From Methylacidiphilum caldifontis (lineage in GTDB: Bacteria; Verrucomicrobiota; Verrucomicrobiia; Methylacidiphilales; CAMAQI01): 44,036 nucleotides of DNA. Position 1 is the stretch's first letter, and each line of letters opens with the position of its first letter. The notes under the pieces are model-generated. The model made no database searches. It was given only the letters and a program-made list of their open reading frames with translations, and was not told the DNA's origin. The position numbers and the translations under genes were made by a program. The stretch is taken from NCBI GenBank assembly GCA_945877805.1, contig CAMCSM010000012.1:1-44036 (forward strand). The letters run 5' to 3'. Shown one piece after another: positions 9,283-22,433 of the stretch.

Positions 9283-9440
9283 TTAGTTAAAACCATTTTA
9301 AATTTGAAGATCAGAAACCTAAAAAAAATTATATTTCGATAAGTGAAAATCAGAGAAGATGCGTGGTTTAAATTGAATTTCTTTGGCGTTTTCCTGCCCC
9401 GTACTCCTTGTCGGGGTTGCCTTTCACTTGGCGGTTAATC
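9283..9440 (-). repeat. Intergenic repeat element, copy B (gmhA/gmhB junction)
   Basis: Read on the minus strand it begins TTAACCGCCAAGTGAAAGGC, continues with the CCCCGACAAGGAGTACGGGG stem and CAGGAAAACGCCAA, then a degenerate AACCACGCATCTTCTCTGAT module. The first 55 bp closely match 11977-12032 and the core matches 22204-22245, both in plus orientation. It fills most of the gap between two genes, and its right edge (GGCGGTTAATC) ends 7 nt before the next start codon. Confidence 0.8.
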
Positions 9441-9447
9441 ACTCCTC

Positions 9448-9978
9448 ATGCCTTCTCGCCCTTGCATCTTTCTCGACCGAGATGGAGTTCTCAACAAATC
9501 GATTGTTCGAGAGGGAAAACCGTATCCCCCTCGGGAGTTTAAAGAATTTGAGTGGATTCCAGGAGTCATCGAACTTTGTTTAAGCTTTAAAAAAGCCGGA
9601 TATCTCTTGGTCGTCGTGACGAATCAACCGGATATCACAACCAAACTGACGACTTGGAAAGCAGTCCATCAAATTCATGCGGAACTTTTAAAGCAGATCC
9701 CCTTTAATGCGATTAAGGTATGTACCGATTTAGAGGAAACGAGTTCTCATAAAAAACCAAATCCCGGGATGTTACTTGAAGCGGCTCAGGAATTGGGAGT
9801 CGACCTTTCGATCTCATGGATGATCGGGGATCGATGGCGGGATATCGGAGCCGGTAAAAATGCCGGCTGTAAAACAATTTGGATCGATTGTGGATATCAG
9901 GAAAAGAGTCCTGAAAATCCAGACTTTACAGTGAAGTCGATGCAAGAAGCTGCTGATCTTATTTTGGGGAGGGGTTAA
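9448..9978 (+). CDS. GmhB-like heptose bisphosphate phosphatase (HAD family)
   Basis: HAD-superfamily phosphatase of the GmhB/HisB-N group, expected to remove the 7-phosphate from D-glycero-D-manno-heptose 1,7-bisphosphate. The 176-residue protein carries the DRDGVLN nucleophile motif (D10, D12), the motif-II region VVVTNQ, motif III KKPNPGML and motif IV GDRWRDIGAGKNAG. The zinc-binding Cys/His loop normally preceding KPxPGM in GmhB is mostly absent here (CTDLEETSSHKKPNPGM), so it is a zinc-free variant. The ATG lies 7 nt after a repeat edge, with no evident Shine-Dalgarno. The stop codon TAA is formed by the TTAACCGCC edge of the next repeat. Confidence 0.82.
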   Translation: MPSRPCIFLDRDGVLNKSIVREGKPYPPREFKEFEWIPGVIELCLSFKKAGYLLVVVTNQPDITTKLTTWKAVHQIHAELLKQIPFNAIKVCTDLEETSSHKKPNPGMLLEAAQELGVDLSISWMIGDRWRDIGAGKNAGCKTIWIDCGYQEKSPENPDFTVKSMQEAADLILGRG

Positions 9979-10142
9979 CCGCCAAATTAAAGACAAAATA
10001 CGCTAATAAAAACGAGGAACCACAAAAGGTTCGTAAAACGATTTGAATTTTATAAGCGAAGATTAGTGATCCGTCAGCTGACGGATAAGCGGTTAAATTG
10101 TATTTCTTTTCTTGGCAAATTTTGCTTTAACTTGGAGGTTAA
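9975..10142. repeat. Intergenic repeat element, copy A, with terminal inverted repeats
   Basis: Bounded by near-identical terminal inverted repeats at 9975-9999 and 10119-10142 (22 of 25 positions match with one gap; both start TTAACC[G/T]CCAA). The interior, read on the minus strand, matches 12043-12110 closely except for an extra 18-bp perfect palindrome, ATCCGTCAGCTGACGGAT (10069-10086). The 19-nt segment at 10016-10034 recurs inverted at 3506-3524. It has no coding capacity, and its left edge supplies the stop codon of the gmhB-like gene. Confidence 0.8.
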
Positions 10143-10170
10143 TCCCTCATTGAATTAAAATGGAGCATCG

Positions 10171-11967: not shown

Positions 11968-11976
11968 AAAAGAGTC

Positions 11977-12117
11977 TTAACCGCCAAGTTAAAGACAAGC
12001 CCGACAAGGAGTACGGGGCAGGAAAACGTCAAATAAATAAATACAATTTAACCGCTTATCTTCACTAATCGTCACTTATAAAATTTAAATCGTTTTTACG
12101 ATCCTTTTGGCGGGTAA
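11977..12117 (+). repeat. Intergenic repeat element, copy C
   Basis: Begins TTAACCGCCAAGTTAAAGAC, runs through the CCCGACAAGGAGTACGGG stem and CAGGAAAACGTCAA, then AATTTAACCGCTTATCTTCA and CGATCCTTTTGGCGGGTAA. The terminal inverted repeat is short (10 of 12 match). The first half matches the inverse copy at 9384-9440; the second half matches the inverse copy within 10021-10103; the right end also matches 22114-22143 in inverse orientation. It fills the gap between two SDR genes and ends 15 nt before the next start codon. Confidence 0.82.
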
Positions 12118-12132
12118 TCCCTCCTTTCCTCT

Positions 12133-13128
12133 ATGAATTCTAAACCTATTGCAGTCGTTACCGGCGGGGCCGGATTTATCGGAAGTCATACCGTTGATCT
12201 CCTCGTCAATGAGGGCTACCGGGTTCATGTCATCGATAATCTCTATGGCGGTCGCCTCGAAAACTTAGCTCAACATGCTAAAAATTCTGAGGTTGTCGTT
12301 GAGACACGGGATATTCGTGGAGTGACTCCAGAAGACTCTCTTTTTAAGGGAGCCAAATACGTGTTTCATTTCGCGGGGATCGGAGACATTGTGCCTTCGA
12401 TCGAAAAACCGATCGAGTACATGGAAACGAACGCGATGGGGACGGTGAGAGTGTTAGAGGCGGCGCGCTTTTCAGGAATTGAGAAGTTCGTTTATGCTGC
12501 CTCCTCTTCTTGTTACGGATTAGCCGATGTTCCGACAAAGGAATCGGCACCGATTCAACCTCATTACCCTTACGCTTTAAGTAAATATCAAGGAGAACAA
12601 GCGGTCTTCCATTGGGGAGAGGTCTACAAACTCCCTGTGAATGCGGTGCGTATTTTTAATGCTTATGGAACCCGTTCCAGAACCTCAGGAGCCTATGGGG
12701 CTGTCTTTGGGGTCTTTCTCGCTCAAAAAATTGCCGGGAAACCGTTTACGGTCGTTGGAGATGGCTCTCAACGTCGAGATTTTGTCTATGTGACCGATGT
12801 GGCACGCGCCTTTTATGCGGCTGCAACAAAGGGAAAATCAGGAGAGTTTTACAATCTAGGAGCAGGAAATCCACAATCGGTAAATCGACTCGTCGAACTT
12901 CTTGGCGGAGAGGTGGTCTATGTTCCGAAACGTCCCGGAGAACCGGATTGCACTTGGGCAGAGATTACTAAAATCACAAATGAACTCGGCTGGAAACCAC
13001 TCGTGAGTTTTGAAGAGGGGGTCGGTGAGATGGTAAAGAATATTCAGTACTGGAAAGAGGCCCCCGTCTGGGACCCCGCCTCGATCCAAAAAGCAACGAA
13101 AACGTGGTTCGACTTTCTACAGAAGTAA
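12133..13128 (+). CDS. NAD-dependent epimerase/dehydratase (GalE-like extended SDR)
   Basis: 331-residue extended SDR resembling UDP-glucose 4-epimerase and related NDP-sugar epimerases. It has TGGAGFIGSH (10-19), the DNLYGGRLENL adenine-binding region, Y147 and K151 (YALSK) after ASSSCYG, RIFNAYGTRSR for the substrate and GDGSQRRDFVYVTDVARA. All catalytic features are intact. It probably epimerises the nucleotide sugar made in this module; whether that is a heptose or hexose cannot be decided. The start abuts a repeat element, without a clear Shine-Dalgarno. It is followed closely by the first GxxExxY cassette. Confidence 0.88.
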   Translation: MNSKPIAVVTGGAGFIGSHTVDLLVNEGYRVHVIDNLYGGRLENLAQHAKNSEVVVETRDIRGVTPEDSLFKGAKYVFHFAGIGDIVPSIEKPIEYMETNAMGTVRVLEAARFSGIEKFVYAASSSCYGLADVPTKESAPIQPHYPYALSKYQGEQAVFHWGEVYKLPVNAVRIFNAYGTRSRTSGAYGAVFGVFLAQKIAGKPFTVVGDGSQRRDFVYVTDVARAFYAAATKGKSGEFYNLGAGNPQSVNRLVELLGGEVVYVPKRPGEPDCTWAEITKITNELGWKPLVSFEEGVGEMVKNIQYWKEAPVWDPASIQKATKTWFDFLQK

Positions 13129-13134
13129 GAAGAA

Positions 13135-13575
13135 TTAACAGGGATTGACAGGATGAACAGGATTACTGTTTATGCAGCACGAAGAGATTACAAAAGTTGT
13201 TTTAGAAAGTGCATTCGAGGTTGTGAAAGAGTTGGGAAGCGGTTTTTTAGAGTCGGTATATGAGAAATCTTTGGCAATAGTACTTGAGGAAAAGGGACTC
13301 AAGACCCAATGCCAACACCCAATAAAAGTTTTATTTCGAGGCAGAGAAGTTGGACAGTTCTATGCAGATATACTTGTGAATCAAAAAGTAATTGTAGAGT
13401 TAAAATCTGTAAAATCACTTATCCCTGAGCATTATGCGCAGGTAATTCATTATTTAAAAGCAACCGGCTTTGATATTGGACTTATTATTAATTTCGGAAA
13501 TCAAAAACTTGAATATAGACGTTTTACGAGAACAAAATGAATTTAAATCCTATCCACCCTGTCAATCCCTGTAAA
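13135..13575. mobile_element. GxxExxY cassette 1: gene framed by 30-bp inverted repeats
   Basis: The left arm (13135-13164) and right arm (13546-13575) are inverted repeats matching at 26 of 30 positions. Each arm is built of roughly 9-10-bp tandem units such as ACAGGGATTG, ACAGGATGA and ACAGGATT. They enclose only the GxxExxY gene. The unit sits between an SDR gene and the HldE-like gene, 6 nt after one stop codon and 11 nt before the next start codon. Target-site duplications are not obvious. Mobility is inferred from structure, not demonstrated. Confidence 0.65.
13172..13540 (+). CDS. GxxExxY protein (PD-(D/E)xK-like family)
   Basis: Small protein of the GxxExxY family (TIGR04256/PDDEXK_3 type), 122 residues, function not established. 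It shows the name-giving motif GFLESVYEKSL (G, E and Y at the spacing of the family), a Y-A-D-I-L-V strand and VIVELKSV, together giving the D...ExK pattern of PD-(D/E)xK nucleases, then the IPEHYAQVIHYLKATG and GLIINFG blocks. Nuclease activity is inference from fold. It is inserted inside the sugar gene row but has no obvious sugar role, and is framed by inverted repeats. The paralogue is at 16372. Confidence 0.88.
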   Translation: MQHEEITKVVLESAFEVVKELGSGFLESVYEKSLAIVLEEKGLKTQCQHPIKVLFRGREVGQFYADILVNQKVIVELKSVKSLIPEHYAQVIHYLKATGFDIGLIINFGNQKLEYRRFTRTK

Positions 13576-13586
13576 TAGAGTATTTT

Positions 13587-15131
13587 ATGGCAACTAAAAA
13601 CAATAGCTACGAACGTAAGATTAAAACCCGTGAGGAACTCATCGAGGCGATCGGACCTCGTCCTCGAAATAAAAAAGTCATCATGTGCCATGGGACTTTT
13701 GATCTGGTTCATCCAGGGCATATCCGTCATTTGATGTATGCCAAAAGTAAGGCCGATATTCTGATCGCAAGTCTGACGAGCGATCCGCATATCAAAAAAG
13801 CCGATTACCGTCCTTTTGTTCCCCAAGATCTTCGTGCCATGAATTTGGCCGCCTTGGAGATGGTTGATTATGTCATTGTTGATGGAAATGAAACTCCATT
13901 GGAAAACCTTGCCGCTATTCAGCCAGATTTTTTTGCGAAAGGCTACGAATACGGAAAAGAAGGCCTTCATCCGAAAACGCAAGAAGAGGTGAATGTTTTA
14001 GAAAGTTACGGTGGGGAGGTTCTTTTTACTCCTGGAGATATCGTTTATTCCTCCTCTTTCGTGATTGAAAATAATCCCCCGAATTTGACCGCTGAAAAGC
14101 TCCAGATTTTAATGCAAGGGGAGGGAATCACTTTCGATGATTTAAAGAATGCGCTAGGGTCAATGAAAGGGGTTCGGGTTCATGTTGTTGGAGATACCAT
14201 CGTTGATACTTATACTTATTGTACTTTAATTGGGGGAATGACAAAAACGCCGACCTTTAGTCTCCGGTATGACCATCACAAAGATTACGTCGGCGGCGCG
14301 GGAATTGTGGCGAAACATCTTTGTAAGGCAGGAGCTGAGGTCCGCTTCACAACGGTCTTAGGCGATGATGAACTTAAGAATTATGTACTGAAAGATCTTC
14401 AAGAGTATGGAGTCAAATGTAATGCCGTCATTGATCCGACAAGACCGACGACGCAAAAAAATGTTTTTACCGCTTCAAACTATCGAATGTTAAAAGTCGA
14501 TAAACTCGATAACCGGTCTATATCCGACAAAATCCTCAAGAAATTTAAAGAGGAAATTTCCTCTTCAGAAGAGGATATTATTGTTTTTAGTGATTTTAGA
14601 CATGGCATCTTTAATCAACGCACTATTGCCGATATGATCGCCGCAATCCCAGAAAAGATATTAAAAGTTGCCGATAGTCAGGTCGCTAGCCGCTGGGGAA
14701 ATATTTTAGATTTTCAAAATTTCGATTTAATTACCCCCAATGAAAAAGAGGCACGATTCTCTTTAGGAGACCAAGACTCTACCGTCCGTCCGCTCGCGAT
14801 GGATCTCTTTATTAAATCAAAGTGCAAACTATTGATCTTAAAATTAGGAGAGCGTGGGTCGATTACGTATCGAGCCCCAAGTCCGGAAGCGCGATCCTTT
14901 TTCATTCTCGATAGCTTTACCAAAAACGTTGTTGATGCCGTTGGTTCAGGAGATGCCTTTCTCTCCTACGCCTCGCTTGCTTTTTTCAAAACGCAAAACT
15001 CGGTGATCGCATCGATTCTCGGAGCGATGGCCGCCGCCGCCGCGTGCGAAAATGAGGGAAACATTCCGGTCTCTCCTGATGATGTGATGAAAAAAATTCA
15101 GAAATTCGAAAAAGAGATAAGATACGAATAA
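13587..15131 (+). CDS. Bifunctional heptose nucleotidyltransferase/kinase, HldE-like with reversed domain order
   Basis: 514-residue two-domain enzyme. Residues about 30-155 form a cytidylyltransferase-like domain (GTFDLVHPGH with HxGH at 42-45; FFAKGYEYGKEG), as in the HldE/RfaE C-terminal half. Residues about 185-510 form a PfkB/ribokinase-family kinase (GGAGIVAKHL; ITPNEKEAR; DAVGSGDAF with catalytic D456). HldE phosphorylates heptose 7-phosphate at C1 and later adenylylates heptose 1-phosphate; in classical HldE the kinase comes first, whereas here the transferase does. With GmhA- and GmhB-like genes nearby, activation of a heptose is the likely job; ADP versus another nucleotide is unknown. 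The ATG follows the right arm of cassette 1. Confidence 0.87.
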   Translation: MATKNNSYERKIKTREELIEAIGPRPRNKKVIMCHGTFDLVHPGHIRHLMYAKSKADILIASLTSDPHIKKADYRPFVPQDLRAMNLAALEMVDYVIVDGNETPLENLAAIQPDFFAKGYEYGKEGLHPKTQEEVNVLESYGGEVLFTPGDIVYSSSFVIENNPPNLTAEKLQILMQGEGITFDDLKNALGSMKGVRVHVVGDTIVDTYTYCTLIGGMTKTPTFSLRYDHHKDYVGGAGIVAKHLCKAGAEVRFTTVLGDDELKNYVLKDLQEYGVKCNAVIDPTRPTTQKNVFTASNYRMLKVDKLDNRSISDKILKKFKEEISSSEEDIIVFSDFRHGIFNQRTIADMIAAIPEKILKVADSQVASRWGNILDFQNFDLITPNEKEARFSLGDQDSTVRPLAMDLFIKSKCKLLILKLGERGSITYRAPSPEARSFFILDSFTKNVVDAVGSGDAFLSYASLAFFKTQNSVIASILGAMAAAAACENEGNIPVSPDDVMKKIQKFEKEIRYE

Positions 15132-15162
15132 ATTTATCTCAAAGCAGATAAATTTATGAATT

Positions 15163-15424
15163 TTAAAGCGCCAAGATAAAGGCAAAGAACTTTCATTATT
15201 ATAAAATTCAAAAAACAAAAAAACGTATTTCAACTTGGTATTTTCTTTGTCTTAATAACTCATGCAGATGTAAATAATGAATTACACGAATCCTTAATTT
15301 CACGATCGAGTTTAAATCAATGTTGATGACTTCGCCGCCCAACTCAGTCAGGTTGCATCCTGCAACCACCGATCTTTCGAACGGTTCTTGTTTTTTGTTC
15401 CCAACAAAAAACAATGGCGGTTAA
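15163..15424 (+). repeat. Intergenic repeat element, copy E, with two internal hairpins
   Basis: The left edge TTAAAGCGCCAAGATAAAGG and right edge ATGGCGGTTAA resemble the edges of the other intergenic elements; AACTTGGTATTTTCTTTGTC in the interior is a degraded inverse of the left edge. Two tight hairpins lie at 15351-15367 (7 bp, loop TCC) and 15388-15414 (12 bp, loop CCC). No gene. The right edge ends 6 nt before the next start codon. Together with its flanks it explains the 299-bp gap. Confidence 0.65.
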
Positions 15425-15430
15425 TCCCTT

Positions 15431-16336
15431 ATGAAAGTGGTTGTCATCGGCTACGGAGTTCAAGGCAAGAAGCGGAAGCGGATTGCGGGAGCGGATTGTA
15501 TCGGGATTGTTGATCCGGTTTCGCCAGAGGCTGATTGGAAGAGCATCGATGAGGTTCCCTTTGAAAAGTTTGATGCCGCTTTGGTTTCTGTTCCAGACGA
15601 TGCGAAATTGCCGATTTTGGAGAAGCTTCTCAGCGCAGGAAAACACCTCTTGGTTGAAAAGCCCCTTTTAGGAACTGCCGAGGAATTATTAAAGCTAGAG
15701 ACTATTTCAAAAAAGAACGGGGCGATCTGTTACACCGCTTATAATCATCGATTCGAACCCCATATGATGCGAGTGAAAAGCGAGATCGATACGGGTTGGT
15801 TAGGAAAAATATATTCGGCGCGATTTTTCTATGGGAATGGAACCGCGCGGGATGTACGAAATTCAGCGTGGCGAGATCAAGGGTGGGGAGTGATTGGAGA
15901 TCTCGGATCACATCTTTTAGATTGGACGGATTACCTCTTTGGAAAAGAGGGCTGGGCACCAAAAACAGTTGAGACCTATCGACATGAGAATAAAGCTCCT
16001 GATCACGCCATTTTTCATTTAGAGGGAGAGATCGAGCTCCACTACGAGATGACGATGCTTTCATGGAGAAATACCTTTCGATTCGATCTCTTTGCGGAGA
16101 ATGGAACGCTTCATATCGATTGCCTGTGTAAGTGGGGACCCAGCATTTTTACGAAGCGCGAACGGGTGTTGCCAAGTGGACGACCGAAAGAGACGCAGGA
16201 GACTTTGGAGTGTTCTGATCCGACCTGGGAAGCGGAATACAACCACTTTCAGAAATTATGTGAGAAACCGCCACAGGATTTATCAACCGACCGCTGGATC
16301 TATTTGACACTAGAAAAGCTCACAAAGACAGTTTAA
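15431..16336 (+). CDS. Gfo/Idh/MocA-family NAD(P)-dependent sugar oxidoreductase
   Basis: 301-residue oxidoreductase of the Gfo/Idh/MocA family, which oxidises or reduces a sugar ring carbon, often on nucleotide sugars. It has the N-terminal Rossmann strand VVVIGYGVQG (3-12), the EKP motif with K77 (VEKPLLG) and GVIGDLGSHLLDW, whose Asp/His are typical catalytic or binding residues. It is on the short side for the family (usual 330-390). It lies within the sugar module; a keto-reduction or C3 oxidation step is plausible. The ATG is 6 nt after a repeat edge with no Shine-Dalgarno; the TAA stop is formed by TTTAACCGC at the left edge of cassette 2. Confidence 0.85.
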   Translation: MKVVVIGYGVQGKKRKRIAGADCIGIVDPVSPEADWKSIDEVPFEKFDAALVSVPDDAKLPILEKLLSAGKHLLVEKPLLGTAEELLKLETISKKNGAICYTAYNHRFEPHMMRVKSEIDTGWLGKIYSARFFYGNGTARDVRNSAWRDQGWGVIGDLGSHLLDWTDYLFGKEGWAPKTVETYRHENKAPDHAIFHLEGEIELHYEMTMLSWRNTFRFDLFAENGTLHIDCLCKWGPSIFTKRERVLPSGRPKETQETLECSDPTWEAEYNHFQKLCEKPPQDLSTDRWIYLTLEKLTKTV

Positions 16337-16824
16337 CCGCTGATCTTCACTAATTTTCACTAATCTGTCTTATGAGTAATTTAGGTTATGAAGTAATGAG
16401 CGCAGCGTTTGAGGTTTATAATCATTTAGGGAGTGGCTTGTTAGAAGAAATTTATCAAGAAAGTTTAGAAATTGAGTTAAGCGTAAGAAATATTTCATTT
16501 TCACCGAAAAAAGAATTAAACGTTTATTATAAAGGGCGTGAGTTAAAAAAGAAATATCAGCCCGATCTTCTTGTTGAAGAAAGTATCGTGATAGAACTCA
16601 AGGCTGTTAACGAATTAGCTAAAGAGCATGAGGCACAATTGCTTAATTATATGCGAATTTCAAAAATCAGTATCGGCTACTTAATCAATTTCGCCCATAA
16701 GGATGATCTCCAGTGGAAGCGATTTGTCGTCAGTGACCATAAGCTATCGCAAAATATGGCCTCTTTTAAATGTTAAATTTTCTTCGAATTTAAGATCAGC
16801 GAAGATTAGTGCAGATTAGTGGTT
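16335..16824. mobile_element. GxxExxY cassette 2: gene framed by 32-bp inverted repeats
   Basis: The left arm (16335-16366) and right arm (16793-16824) match at 26 of 32 positions in inverse orientation. The arms consist of about 10-bp units such as CTGATCTTCA, CTAATTTTCA and CTAATCT. They enclose only the GxxExxY gene. The left arm overlaps the TAA of the upstream oxidoreductase; the right arm ends 5 nt before the next ATG. The arm module AACCGCTGATCTTCACTAAT is also present in gene-free elements at 12049-12070 and, inverted, near 10045-10096. Confidence 0.68.
16372..16776 (+). CDS. GxxExxY protein (PD-(D/E)xK-like family), second copy
   Basis: 134-residue GxxExxY family member, diverged from the copy at 13172. 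The motif is GLLEEIYQESL; the nuclease-like pattern is PDLLVEES followed by VIELKAV, then EHEAQLLNYMRIS and GYLINFA. The C-terminus extends about 10 residues beyond the other copy. No biochemical function is established; PD-(D/E)xK nuclease fold membership is family knowledge, activity is inference. It lies between the oxidoreductase and the UGD-like gene inside inverted-repeat cassette 2. The ATG falls 5 nt after the left arm. Confidence 0.88.
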   Translation: MSNLGYEVMSAAFEVYNHLGSGLLEEIYQESLEIELSVRNISFSPKKELNVYYKGRELKKKYQPDLLVEESIVIELKAVNELAKEHEAQLLNYMRISKISIGYLINFAHKDDLQWKRFVVSDHKLSQNMASFKC

Positions 16825-16829
16825 TCCTC

Positions 16830-18119
16830 ATGAAAATTGGTTTTGCAGGTCTCACCCATCTCGGGATTCATTACAGTCTCGCTTCGGCAGAGCGCGGATT
16901 TGAGACGGTGGCGTTTCATCCCGATCAGGAGCTTGTCGATCATCTTACAAAGGGTCTCTTTCCTGTTTCTGAACCAGGACTTGATGAACTCTGGCAGAAA
17001 TCAAAGCAATCGATTCGATACGTTTCTCAAGCTCAGGAACTTAATTCCTGCTCCGTTGTTTTTGTTGCTATCGATGTGATTACCGATGAGGAGAATCGTG
17101 TCGATCTTAGGCCGTTGAATGAGCTTTTAGAGATTGTCGTGGATGCAATGGAGCCGAATGCGACCTTGGTGATCATGAGTCAGGTTCAACCAGGGTTCAT
17201 GAAGAGGCTTTTGGGGCGCTGGCCAAATTTTAAAGGGGGGATTTTCTACCAAGTTGAAACCTTAGCTTTTGGAACGGCGGTGGAGAGGGCGACGAAGCCG
17301 GAACGCTATATTATCGGTGCCCCAGAAGCACATCGTTCCATTGAAAAATTACCCGTGGAGTATCGTCAGTGGCTCGAGTCATTCGGCTGCCCACTGTTAT
17401 TAATGCGTTATGAAAGTGCAGAACTTGCCAAGATTGCGATCAATCAATATCTGATCGCATCTGTGACGGTCACGAATACATTGGCCGCCATTTGTGAAAA
17501 TCAAGGGGCGAATTGGCAAGAGATTGTTCCTGCATTGAGACTCGATCGTCGAATTGGGCCTTATGCCTATTTACAACCAGGTCTTGGTATTGCGGGGGGA
17601 AATCTAGAACGAGATCTTGTTGCTGTTCGTCAAATGGCATCAAAGGGAGAAACGGATGAATCCTTTCCGATAGCGGCACAGAAAAATAGTCAGTTTTCTG
17701 CCGATTGGGCGCTTCGAGAGCTCATAAAAAGAGGGTTAAATGAAGCGGGGAAAACGATTGCGGTATTGGGACTCGCTTACAAAATTGATACCCATTCCGT
17801 AAAAAATTCTCCGGCTCTTCGGCTTTTGAAAACTCTTGAAGCTCCACAAAAAAAGGGATGGGATCCACAAGTCAAATTGAATCCGGAATGGGAATTAAAG
17901 AATTACTCCTATTGCTCCTCCGCAGGAGAAACGTTAATTGATGTCGATGCGGTGGTCGTCATGACTCCTTGGAAGGAATTTGCCTTTCTCGGAGAAAAAG
18001 AGTTAATTTCGATGCGAGGTAAATGCGTGATCGATCCGATGGGAATATGGGAAAAACAAGAGCTAGGGAGTCGAGGATTTGATTACGCCCGTATGGGACT
18101 AGGAAAAGAAGATCGGTAA
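16830..18119 (+). CDS. UDP-glucose/GDP-mannose dehydrogenase-like protein lacking catalytic Cys
   Basis: 429-residue member of the UDP-glucose/GDP-mannose 6-dehydrogenase family. The NAD-binding start is MKIGFAGLTHLG, the middle-domain helix keeps K201 and N205 (LAKIAINQYL), and AFGTAVERATKPERYIIG matches the family. The region that normally reads GGSCFxKD reads GGNLERD (256-262), putting Asn258 where the thiohemiacetal-forming Cys should be. It may therefore perform only one oxidation step, an altered reaction, or none. ATG 16830 is preferred over an in-frame GTG at 16809, which lies inside the right arm of cassette 2. The TAA stop reads into TAACCACCAAG, a repeat-like edge. Confidence 0.85.
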   Translation: MKIGFAGLTHLGIHYSLASAERGFETVAFHPDQELVDHLTKGLFPVSEPGLDELWQKSKQSIRYVSQAQELNSCSVVFVAIDVITDEENRVDLRPLNELLEIVVDAMEPNATLVIMSQVQPGFMKRLLGRWPNFKGGIFYQVETLAFGTAVERATKPERYIIGAPEAHRSIEKLPVEYRQWLESFGCPLLLMRYESAELAKIAINQYLIASVTVTNTLAAICENQGANWQEIVPALRLDRRIGPYAYLQPGLGIAGGNLERDLVAVRQMASKGETDESFPIAAQKNSQFSADWALRELIKRGLNEAGKTIAVLGLAYKIDTHSVKNSPALRLLKTLEAPQKKGWDPQVKLNPEWELKNYSYCSSAGETLIDVDAVVVMTPWKEFAFLGEKELISMRGKCVIDPMGIWEKQELGSRGFDYARMGLGKEDR

Positions 18120-22108: not shown

Positions 22109-22433
22109 GAGATTTAACCGCCAAAAGGATCGTGAAAACGATTAGCCACTAACAGCAGCGCTGCTTGTAATTTTAGCTCGGAGGGTTGAAGGGGAGCAAT
22201 ATAAAGGCAACCCCGACAAGGGGTACGGGGCAGGAAAACGCCAAGAAAAAACCATTTTAAACCACTGATTCTCACTTATTGGCGCTTATCAATACAACCA
22301 AATCTTCGATTTGCAAAAAAACCAAAAATCAGAGGTATTTTTCCTTTTTTCCTGCCTTCCCTATTCAAAAGGTATTGTGGTTTAATCGTATTTCTTTGAT
22401 GACGTTTATTGATCGGGCTTGGCGATAAATTTT
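22109..22433. other. 325-bp gap containing intergenic repeat copy D
   Basis: No gene. Repeat copy D occupies about 22114-22290 (separate entry). The remainder is AT-rich, ending in a degenerate TTTAATCGTA-type edge, and contains the promoterless-looking approach to the SDR gene at 22434. This is the last intergenic repeat of the locus; downstream genes are tightly packed. Confidence 0.6.
22114..22290 (+). repeat. Intergenic repeat element, copy D (composite)
   Basis: Starts TTAACCGCCAAAAGGATCGT, matching the right end of copy C (12090-12117) in inverse orientation. It then carries an unrelated insert with the 12-bp palindrome AGCAGCGCTGCT (22153-22164), the core CCCCGACAAGGGGTACGGGG at about 22211-22230 with CAGGAAAACGCCAAG, and a degenerate AAACCACTGATTCTCACTTA module. 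The mosaic of modules shared with copies B and C suggests recombination or nested insertion among family members. Confidence 0.75.

Follow-up and report, generated by a model that had tools for sequence, protein, structure and literature searches.

Relation to described systems

In the REPIN-RAYT system, copies of a repeat border the gene of a DNA-cutting enzyme and are also scattered outside genes, singly or as inverted doublets; each repeat family has few enzyme genes, and the systems are for the most part chromosomal and inherited vertically. RAYTs (REP-associated tyrosine transposases) appear incapable of moving themselves (PMC3116915). The S23 intervening sequence of Coxiella measures 428 nt and has 28-bp terminal inverted repeats and tandem heptamers (PMC4990558). 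Traits of both are combined in two genes of the GxxExxY family in Methylacidiphilum caldifontis, each of which lies between inverted arms of tandem words in the 44,036-nucleotide stretch analysed here (the window; assembly GCA_945877805.1, contig CAMCSM010000012.1, positions 1–44,036, forward strand). GxxExxY is a common annotation of unknown function, named (or cited by its Pfam accession) in only three papers of the open-licence literature searched, and there in no title or abstract. With moderate confidence, these elements are read as chromosomal mobile cassettes of approximately 430–500 bp, composed of a nuclease gene and word-array arms, the nuclease probably acting on its own arrays. This would give the family a testable role, and would explain a class of dispersed intergenic word repeats.

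The GxxExxY cassettes share the above traits of repeat and enzyme gene and work like the REPIN-RAYT system, but are not a member of it because the enzyme superfamily and the build of the repeat differ. The protein is of the Cas4/RecB-like PD-(D/E)xK type, and an HUH/Y1 tyrosine transposase was not found. No palindromic unit of the REP type was seen either, the arrays consisting of non-palindromic 7-nt words in tandem whereas REPs are palindromes. Both the enzyme and the ends are thus unrelated to those of RAYT-REPIN and, unlike a RAYT gene, the GxxExxY gene travels with its arms.

To the S23 intervening sequences the cassettes are similar in size (about 430–460 nt), in possessing one small open reading frame (ORF), in terminal inverted repeats of about 28–33 bp and in tandem heptamer-like units. 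They differ in specifying an unrelated nuclease and in lying between protein genes, not in 23S rRNA. Neither the window nor the surroundings of 20 GxxExxY loci gave an Rfam match, and insertion into rRNA or tRNA was therefore rejected; among 20 loci with four-helix-bundle genes, one tRNA was the only match.

The two cassettes

Cassette 1 comprises a left arm (13134–13164, + strand; ATTAACAGGGATTGACAGGATGAACAGGATT, 31 nt in three units of about 9–10 nt), GxxExxY nuclease gene 1 (13172–13540, +; 122 aa) and a right arm (13546–13576, −) ending 10 nt before the ATG at 13587. Cassette 2 is built likewise of a 32-nt left arm with CRCTNAT words (16335–16366, +; AACCGCTGATCTTCACTAATTTTCACTAATCT), gene 2 (16372–16776, +; 134 aa) and a right arm (16793–16824, −) ending 5 nt before the ATG at 16830. 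The PD-(D/E)xK protein is the sole gene-sized ORF between the arms, and no known transposase or recombinase catalytic domain was found there. The preliminary description of the window had likewise made the two genes the sole cargo of inverted repeats matching at 26/30 and 26/32 positions; the second figure was reproduced, while the first arm pair measures 27/31 (87%). Local alignment of the arms scored 21 for cassette 1 and 17 for cassette 2, the best of 50 shuffles each reaching 12.5. As that description also held, the two sets of arms differ in sequence and agree in build, both consisting of 9–10 nt tandem units (AACAGGGATTGACAGGATGAACAGGATT; AACCGCTGATCTTCACTAATTTTCACTAAT).

Both cassettes sit within a co-directional operon of nucleotide-sugar genes, close to the next start codon as had been noted. 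Cassette 1 follows a NAD-dependent epimerase gene (12133–13128, +; PF01370/PF16363) and precedes a CTP_transf_like and PfkB fusion (13587–15131, +; Pfam). Cassette 2 lies between genes for a GFO/IDH/MocA oxidoreductase (15431–16336, +; Pfam), the TAA stop of which (16334–16336) overlaps the left arm, and a UDP-glucose/GDP-mannose dehydrogenase (16830–18119, +; Pfam). No cassette promoter was identified, and no systematic promoter search was made.

Distribution of the arms

The prediction that GxxExxY genes elsewhere carry flanking inverted arms was borne out. The 300 nt upstream of each gene were compared with the reverse complement of the 300 nt downstream, displaced flanks from the same loci serving as the null. 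Arms exceeded the 99% null level in 120 of 155 GxxExxY genes from many phyla, archaea included: 61/75 loci from the same genome, order and phylum, and 59/80 from a wide set that covered Planctomycetota, Bacteroidota, Chloroflexota, Cyanobacteria, Acidobacteria, Proteobacteria, Omnitrophota, Neomarinimicrobiota, methanogens and others. In an 800-kb sample of one complete genome of the same phylum all five GxxExxY genes had word arms (four scoring >14, one 13), and a score of ≥14 was reached by 11 of 1079 other ORFs of 110–170 aa (about 1%). The top-scoring of these, on inspection, were of different sequence types and none contained CRCDRAK-type words.

The expectation that arms would be commoner with GxxExxY than with unrelated genes therefore stood with one exception. 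The TIGR02436 four-helix-bundle genes, chosen as a negative control, exceeded the 99% null level in 19 of 25 cases, with arms of other words (TTTTCAG, GGTTCTT); the architecture is hence not exclusive to GxxExxY. Median cassette length was 464 nt for GxxExxY and 446 nt for the four-helix bundle.

The family is scarce off the chromosome, with 8 matches in 72,556 plasmids, one in viral contigs and none in 50,697 phages, and a plasmid or phage vehicle was rejected on this account. A number of proteins of approximately 270 aa match the GxxExxY profile weakly, some of them with two tandem matches (G070:C17, G067:C1:424059-424805, G104:C38 and others); the one examined, L236 (274 aa), is without arms.

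Movement and insertion sites

The unit of movement is delimited by pairs of related cassettes at unrelated sites. The proteins of L221 (genome G100) and L222 (G098) are 88% identical, their flanks are unrelated, and the alignment of the two loci extends from the outer word of the left arm to the outer word of the right arm. L088 and L093 are likewise homologous from arm to arm at unrelated sites, and L088 and L110 are two diverged copies within one genome. These alignments, together with the empty sites described below, show that the cassette moves whole, arm to arm. Between L221 and L222 identity is 98–100% over the final 60 nt of the gene plus the right arm and about 75–80% over the 5′ part, which suggests conversion or constraint at the right end.

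Queries made of joined flanks revealed clean empty sites in congeners, as had been anticipated for relatives, and several of these are overlapping stop and start codons (ATGA, GTGA, TAATG). In a set of 136 armed elements, left arms mostly have their edge no more than about 10 nt from the stop codon of the preceding gene, and right arms theirs 0–14 nt short of the start codon that follows; where the neighbours are co-directional, 71 cassettes are in sense and 12 in antisense orientation. The gaps between adjacent genes are thus where the cassettes have inserted, in most cases reading the same way as the operon. In L217 and L216 the upstream frame appears to enter the cassette arm after insertion at an ATGA overlap, altering the C-terminus.

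One such junction, in a V-ATPase-like operon (gene naming by inference), was surveyed in 14 congeners. A GxxExxY cassette is present in three (two with CGCAGAT words, one with CACGAAT words), a four-helix-bundle cassette with GTTATC words in four, a 275-nt deleted version in one and relics of 94–141 nt in two, while in the remaining four the junction measures merely 34–40 nt. Cassettes of one type, found at a single site, therefore contain two unrelated proteins. The junction that follows has in most congeners a 9-nt spacer with an ATGA overlap (in one it is 12 nt, and the G104 sequence is truncated there); G100 carries at this point a GxxExxY cassette with CACGAAT words, and two genomes have gene-less inserts of 127–141 nt.

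In having terminal inverted repeats that bound the moving unit, as the comparison of L221 and L222 revealed, and in occurring in autonomous and gene-less forms, the cassettes resemble insertion sequences and miniature inverted-repeat transposable elements. They differ from these in the lack of a DDE, HUH, serine or tyrosine recombinase and in the near absence of the GxxExxY family from plasmids and phages; no clear target-site duplication was seen.

A nuclease gene lying between host genes, with empty alleles in relatives, is also what a free-standing homing endonuclease would present: the enzyme would cut empty junctions, repair would copy the cassette in, and the arms would be incidental or self-protective. 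The PD-(D/E)xK assignment and the junction with occupied and empty alleles among congeners agree with this, and free-standing homing endonucleases are known from phages (PMC2988022, PMC10448857). We nevertheless regard homing as unlikely, since related cassettes sit in many unrelated target junctions, the conserved recognition-like DNA is in the word-array ends and not in the flanks, the arms are common to gene-less miniature pairs, and the family had no phage match.

Arm words and their co-variation with the protein

Where the order is clear, an arm runs from outside to inside as roughly TTAAC followed by three 7-nt words of the form CRCDRAK in steps of 9–10 nt. When the two arms of one element are compared, 5.6% of word positions and 47% of spacer positions disagree (p 6e-45, 43 arm pairs), and positions 1, 3 and 6 of the word are nearly always the same in both arms. 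The arm mismatches show no bias to G.U-compatible changes (111 vs 133). Conserved words, free spacers and the missing G.U bias fit recognition of each word, not a selected paired stem, and for the same reasons RNA pairing was rejected as the cause of arm symmetry.

These results bear directly on the alternative of an RNA-level element akin to the 23S rRNA intervening sequences, the arms of which would pair in mRNA, with RNase III excising the stem, spread occurring via RNA or host recombination, and the protein having some other role. Size and anatomy agree with those of the Coxiella S23 intervening sequence (PMC4990558), as do the strong sense orientation and the location in operons with an element acting in RNA. 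Such an element is, however, improbable: the arm mismatches, in which the cassettes depart from the S23 intervening sequences, give no sign of RNA-pairing selection, the spacers are unmatched, no rRNA lies beside the 20 GxxExxY loci, and in the window's own genome, with five GxxExxY matches, no reverse transcriptase was detected.

The co-variation of arms and protein that the preliminary description had proposed as a check was found. Arm words of 132 elements track the protein phylogeny (Mantel r 0.36, with none of 2000 permutations as high), and r is 0.32 when arm GC is removed or when protein pairs closer than 0.35 are left out. Words such as CACAGAG are kept across phyla at about 55–60% protein identity, a distance at which non-coding DNA free of constraint would presumably no longer be recognisable. 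Searched for exactly, the arm words gave only an unrelated match in the open-licence literature.

The GxxExxY protein

Gene 1 specifies a protein matching TIGR04256 (E 2.2e-39, 134 bits; cut-off 35) and PF13366, PDDEXK_3 (E 7e-39, 133 bits; cut-off 22); the corresponding values for gene 2 are E 1e-41 and 142 bits (cut-off 35) and E 1.7e-41 and 142 bits (cut-off 22). Neither protein matched the S23 family TIGR02436 in NCBIfam or Pfam. No sequence relatives of known structure were found, and fold comparison did give matches: the AlphaFold model of protein 2 (pLDDT 90.9) has Cas4 SSO0001 as its best match in the PDB (E 4e-6), followed by lambda-type exonucleases and RecE. Invariant or nearly invariant residues are G-x-x-E-x-x-Y, D65, E75-x-K77 and Q89-x-x-x-Y93 (numbering of protein 2). 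As far as fold prediction and the conserved E, D, ExK and QxxxY go, the protein is a minimal nuclease of the Cas4/RecB PD-(D/E)xK type, which upholds the PD-(D/E)xK-like pattern noted at the outset. With the Cas4/RecB-family nucleases (4ic1) it shares the predicted fold and the D, ExK and QxxxY residues, but it is only about 120–135 aa long and has no cysteine in a conserved column to hold an Fe-S cluster. The PADLOC defence models did not match the window proteins, for which reason a defence system was rejected; a Cas4b match in a relative was weak (E 4e-4).

Orthologous pairs have ratios of nonsynonymous to synonymous substitution (dN/dS) of 0.03–0.13, the value for gene 1 and its orthologue in G002 being 0.07. 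The strength of this purifying selection and the long retention of copies in place indicate that the cassette is not a purely transient parasite. The earlier suggestion of a selfish or repeat-maintaining element must be narrowed to this extent; the generality of the arms, their co-variation with the protein and the empty sites speak for it. Selection and syntenic persistence between species, together with the small number of genes per word family per genome, could also point to a domesticated regulator or genome-maintenance nuclease, with the arrays as operators or genome marks and movement rare and incidental. We consider domestication decidedly unlikely in view of complete arm-to-arm units at unrelated sites, also within one genome, and of the presence/absence polymorphism at one junction among 14 congeners.

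Gene-less arrays

The pattern of the cassette-2 array occurs in 40 copies in the window's own genome, 20 in G001 and 43 in G002, the reversed pattern used as control giving 0; in G001, where no cognate gene was found, the copies are fewest and most degenerate. In another genus, CACTAAT arrays number 32, 32 and 29 in two genomes with the cognate gene and in G070, the gene of which was counted as probable because its arms are degraded, vs 0–17 elsewhere (p 0.006, or 0.018 without G070). For CACGAAT the counts are 24, 18, 16, 10 and 6 with the cognate gene vs 0–17 without (p 0.008; the copy-number test ignores phylogeny). Close pairs of arrays, 25–96 nt from start to start, are inward in 35 cases and outward or same-strand in none, and inward is the orientation of the cassette arms. 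Gene-less inward pairs are, by this comparison, cassettes minus the gene and in form comparable to REPINs. The counts show that the arrays, as identified by pattern, also exist as gene-less miniature inward pairs and dispersed singles, and that these are commoner with the cognate gene in two word families.

Within the window, gene-less copies of the cassette-2 array lie at 12050–12079 (+; one mismatch, in the spacer 11968–12132), 9339–9368 (−; three mismatches) and 22260–22289 (+; three mismatches), and an array relic at 10023–10109 (−) forms an 88-nt inverted repeat (78%) with 12035–12109. Spacers of the sugar operon (9400–9448, 9965–10150, 11968–12130 and 15160–15430) are packed with array relics that lack a gene, are nested in one another and belong to two or more word families, CGCCAAG and CRCTNAT among them; in G002 the spacer 15132–15430 is much shorter. 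One relic contains a perfect palindrome, ATCCGTCAGCTGACGGAT, at 10069–10086, where its inverted partner has few bases.

Cassettes with other cargo

The four-helix-bundle or S23 genes (L055–L084; L341–L343, L345) form single-gene cassettes between inverted tandem-word arms with words of their own, and four of them occupy the operon junction that GxxExxY cassettes use in congeners. At G095:C1:2040314-2040818 (L289), the arms are made of words that a GxxExxY cassette of this genome also has (CACAAAAAACACAAAAAGTCAC), and they surround a 142-aa protein that probably has membrane segments and fits no Pfam family above cut-off, possibly a third cargo. Tentatively, and with rather less confidence than we place in the GxxExxY cassettes themselves, the GxxExxY cassettes and the S23 cassettes, among the latter the intervening sequences of 23S rRNA, might together form a single undescribed class of minimal mobile elements with two branches. 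Its members would each have one small arm-specific protein gene between inverted word arrays, target operon junctions and spawn the gene-less pairs behind many widespread intergenic repeats of the CACAGAG/CACGAAG type. How the S23 intervening sequences spread is an old question that the build held in common opens to new tests.

That the GxxExxY gene is a mere passenger, moved by another host enzyme such as an HUH/Y1 transposase or a reverse transcriptase, would suit the four-helix-bundle genes and the 142-aa protein between similar arms, but is highly improbable given that the arm words follow the GxxExxY phylogeny and that reverse transcriptase was undetected in nine GxxExxY-bearing genomes and the window's own, and Y1 transposase in G007, G016 and G039 (metagenome-assembled genomes, MAGs, some of them incomplete). 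A requirement for either enzyme, neither being universal in bearing genomes, was rejected.

Proposed mechanism

In the mobile cassette as we envisage it, the GxxExxY protein would bind the words of its own family and cut or nick at the ends of the arrays, and so would move the cassette that encodes it (in cis) as well as miniature pairs (in trans). A stop/start junction would tolerate the insertion since a stop codon can come from TTAACC at the end of the arm and the following start codon lies directly behind; expression is probably via transcription of the operon. If the protein does act on the arms, a Cas4-like nuclease on its own would suffice to drive a mobile element of about 460 bp. This would add to the known mobility enzymes and bear on the reading of short DNA words by Cas4-type nucleases.

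Several points weigh against this proposal. Recognition and cutting of the arms by the nuclease are inferred, and linkage alone can produce part of the arm-protein correlation. The four-helix-bundle cassettes have the same build and use the same junction with no nuclease, so mobility may not depend on a nuclease in every case. A purely selfish hopper needs neither such strong purifying selection nor such long retention at one site. The longest shared direct string is 3.87 vs 3.62 ± 0.09 in shuffled pairs, with no distinct target-site duplication. Besides the disregard of phylogeny in the copy-number test, G101 (a MAG, 90% complete) has 17 CACGAAT arrays, many with zero mismatches, and no cognate gene detected.

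Other repeats in the window

Inverted repeats of another family (TCCCCCCCTGGAGGGGTGAGCTCCCGCGAATCCC), nearly identical to one another and with no relation to the word arms, are located at 1644–1681/2368–2405 and 1710–1738.

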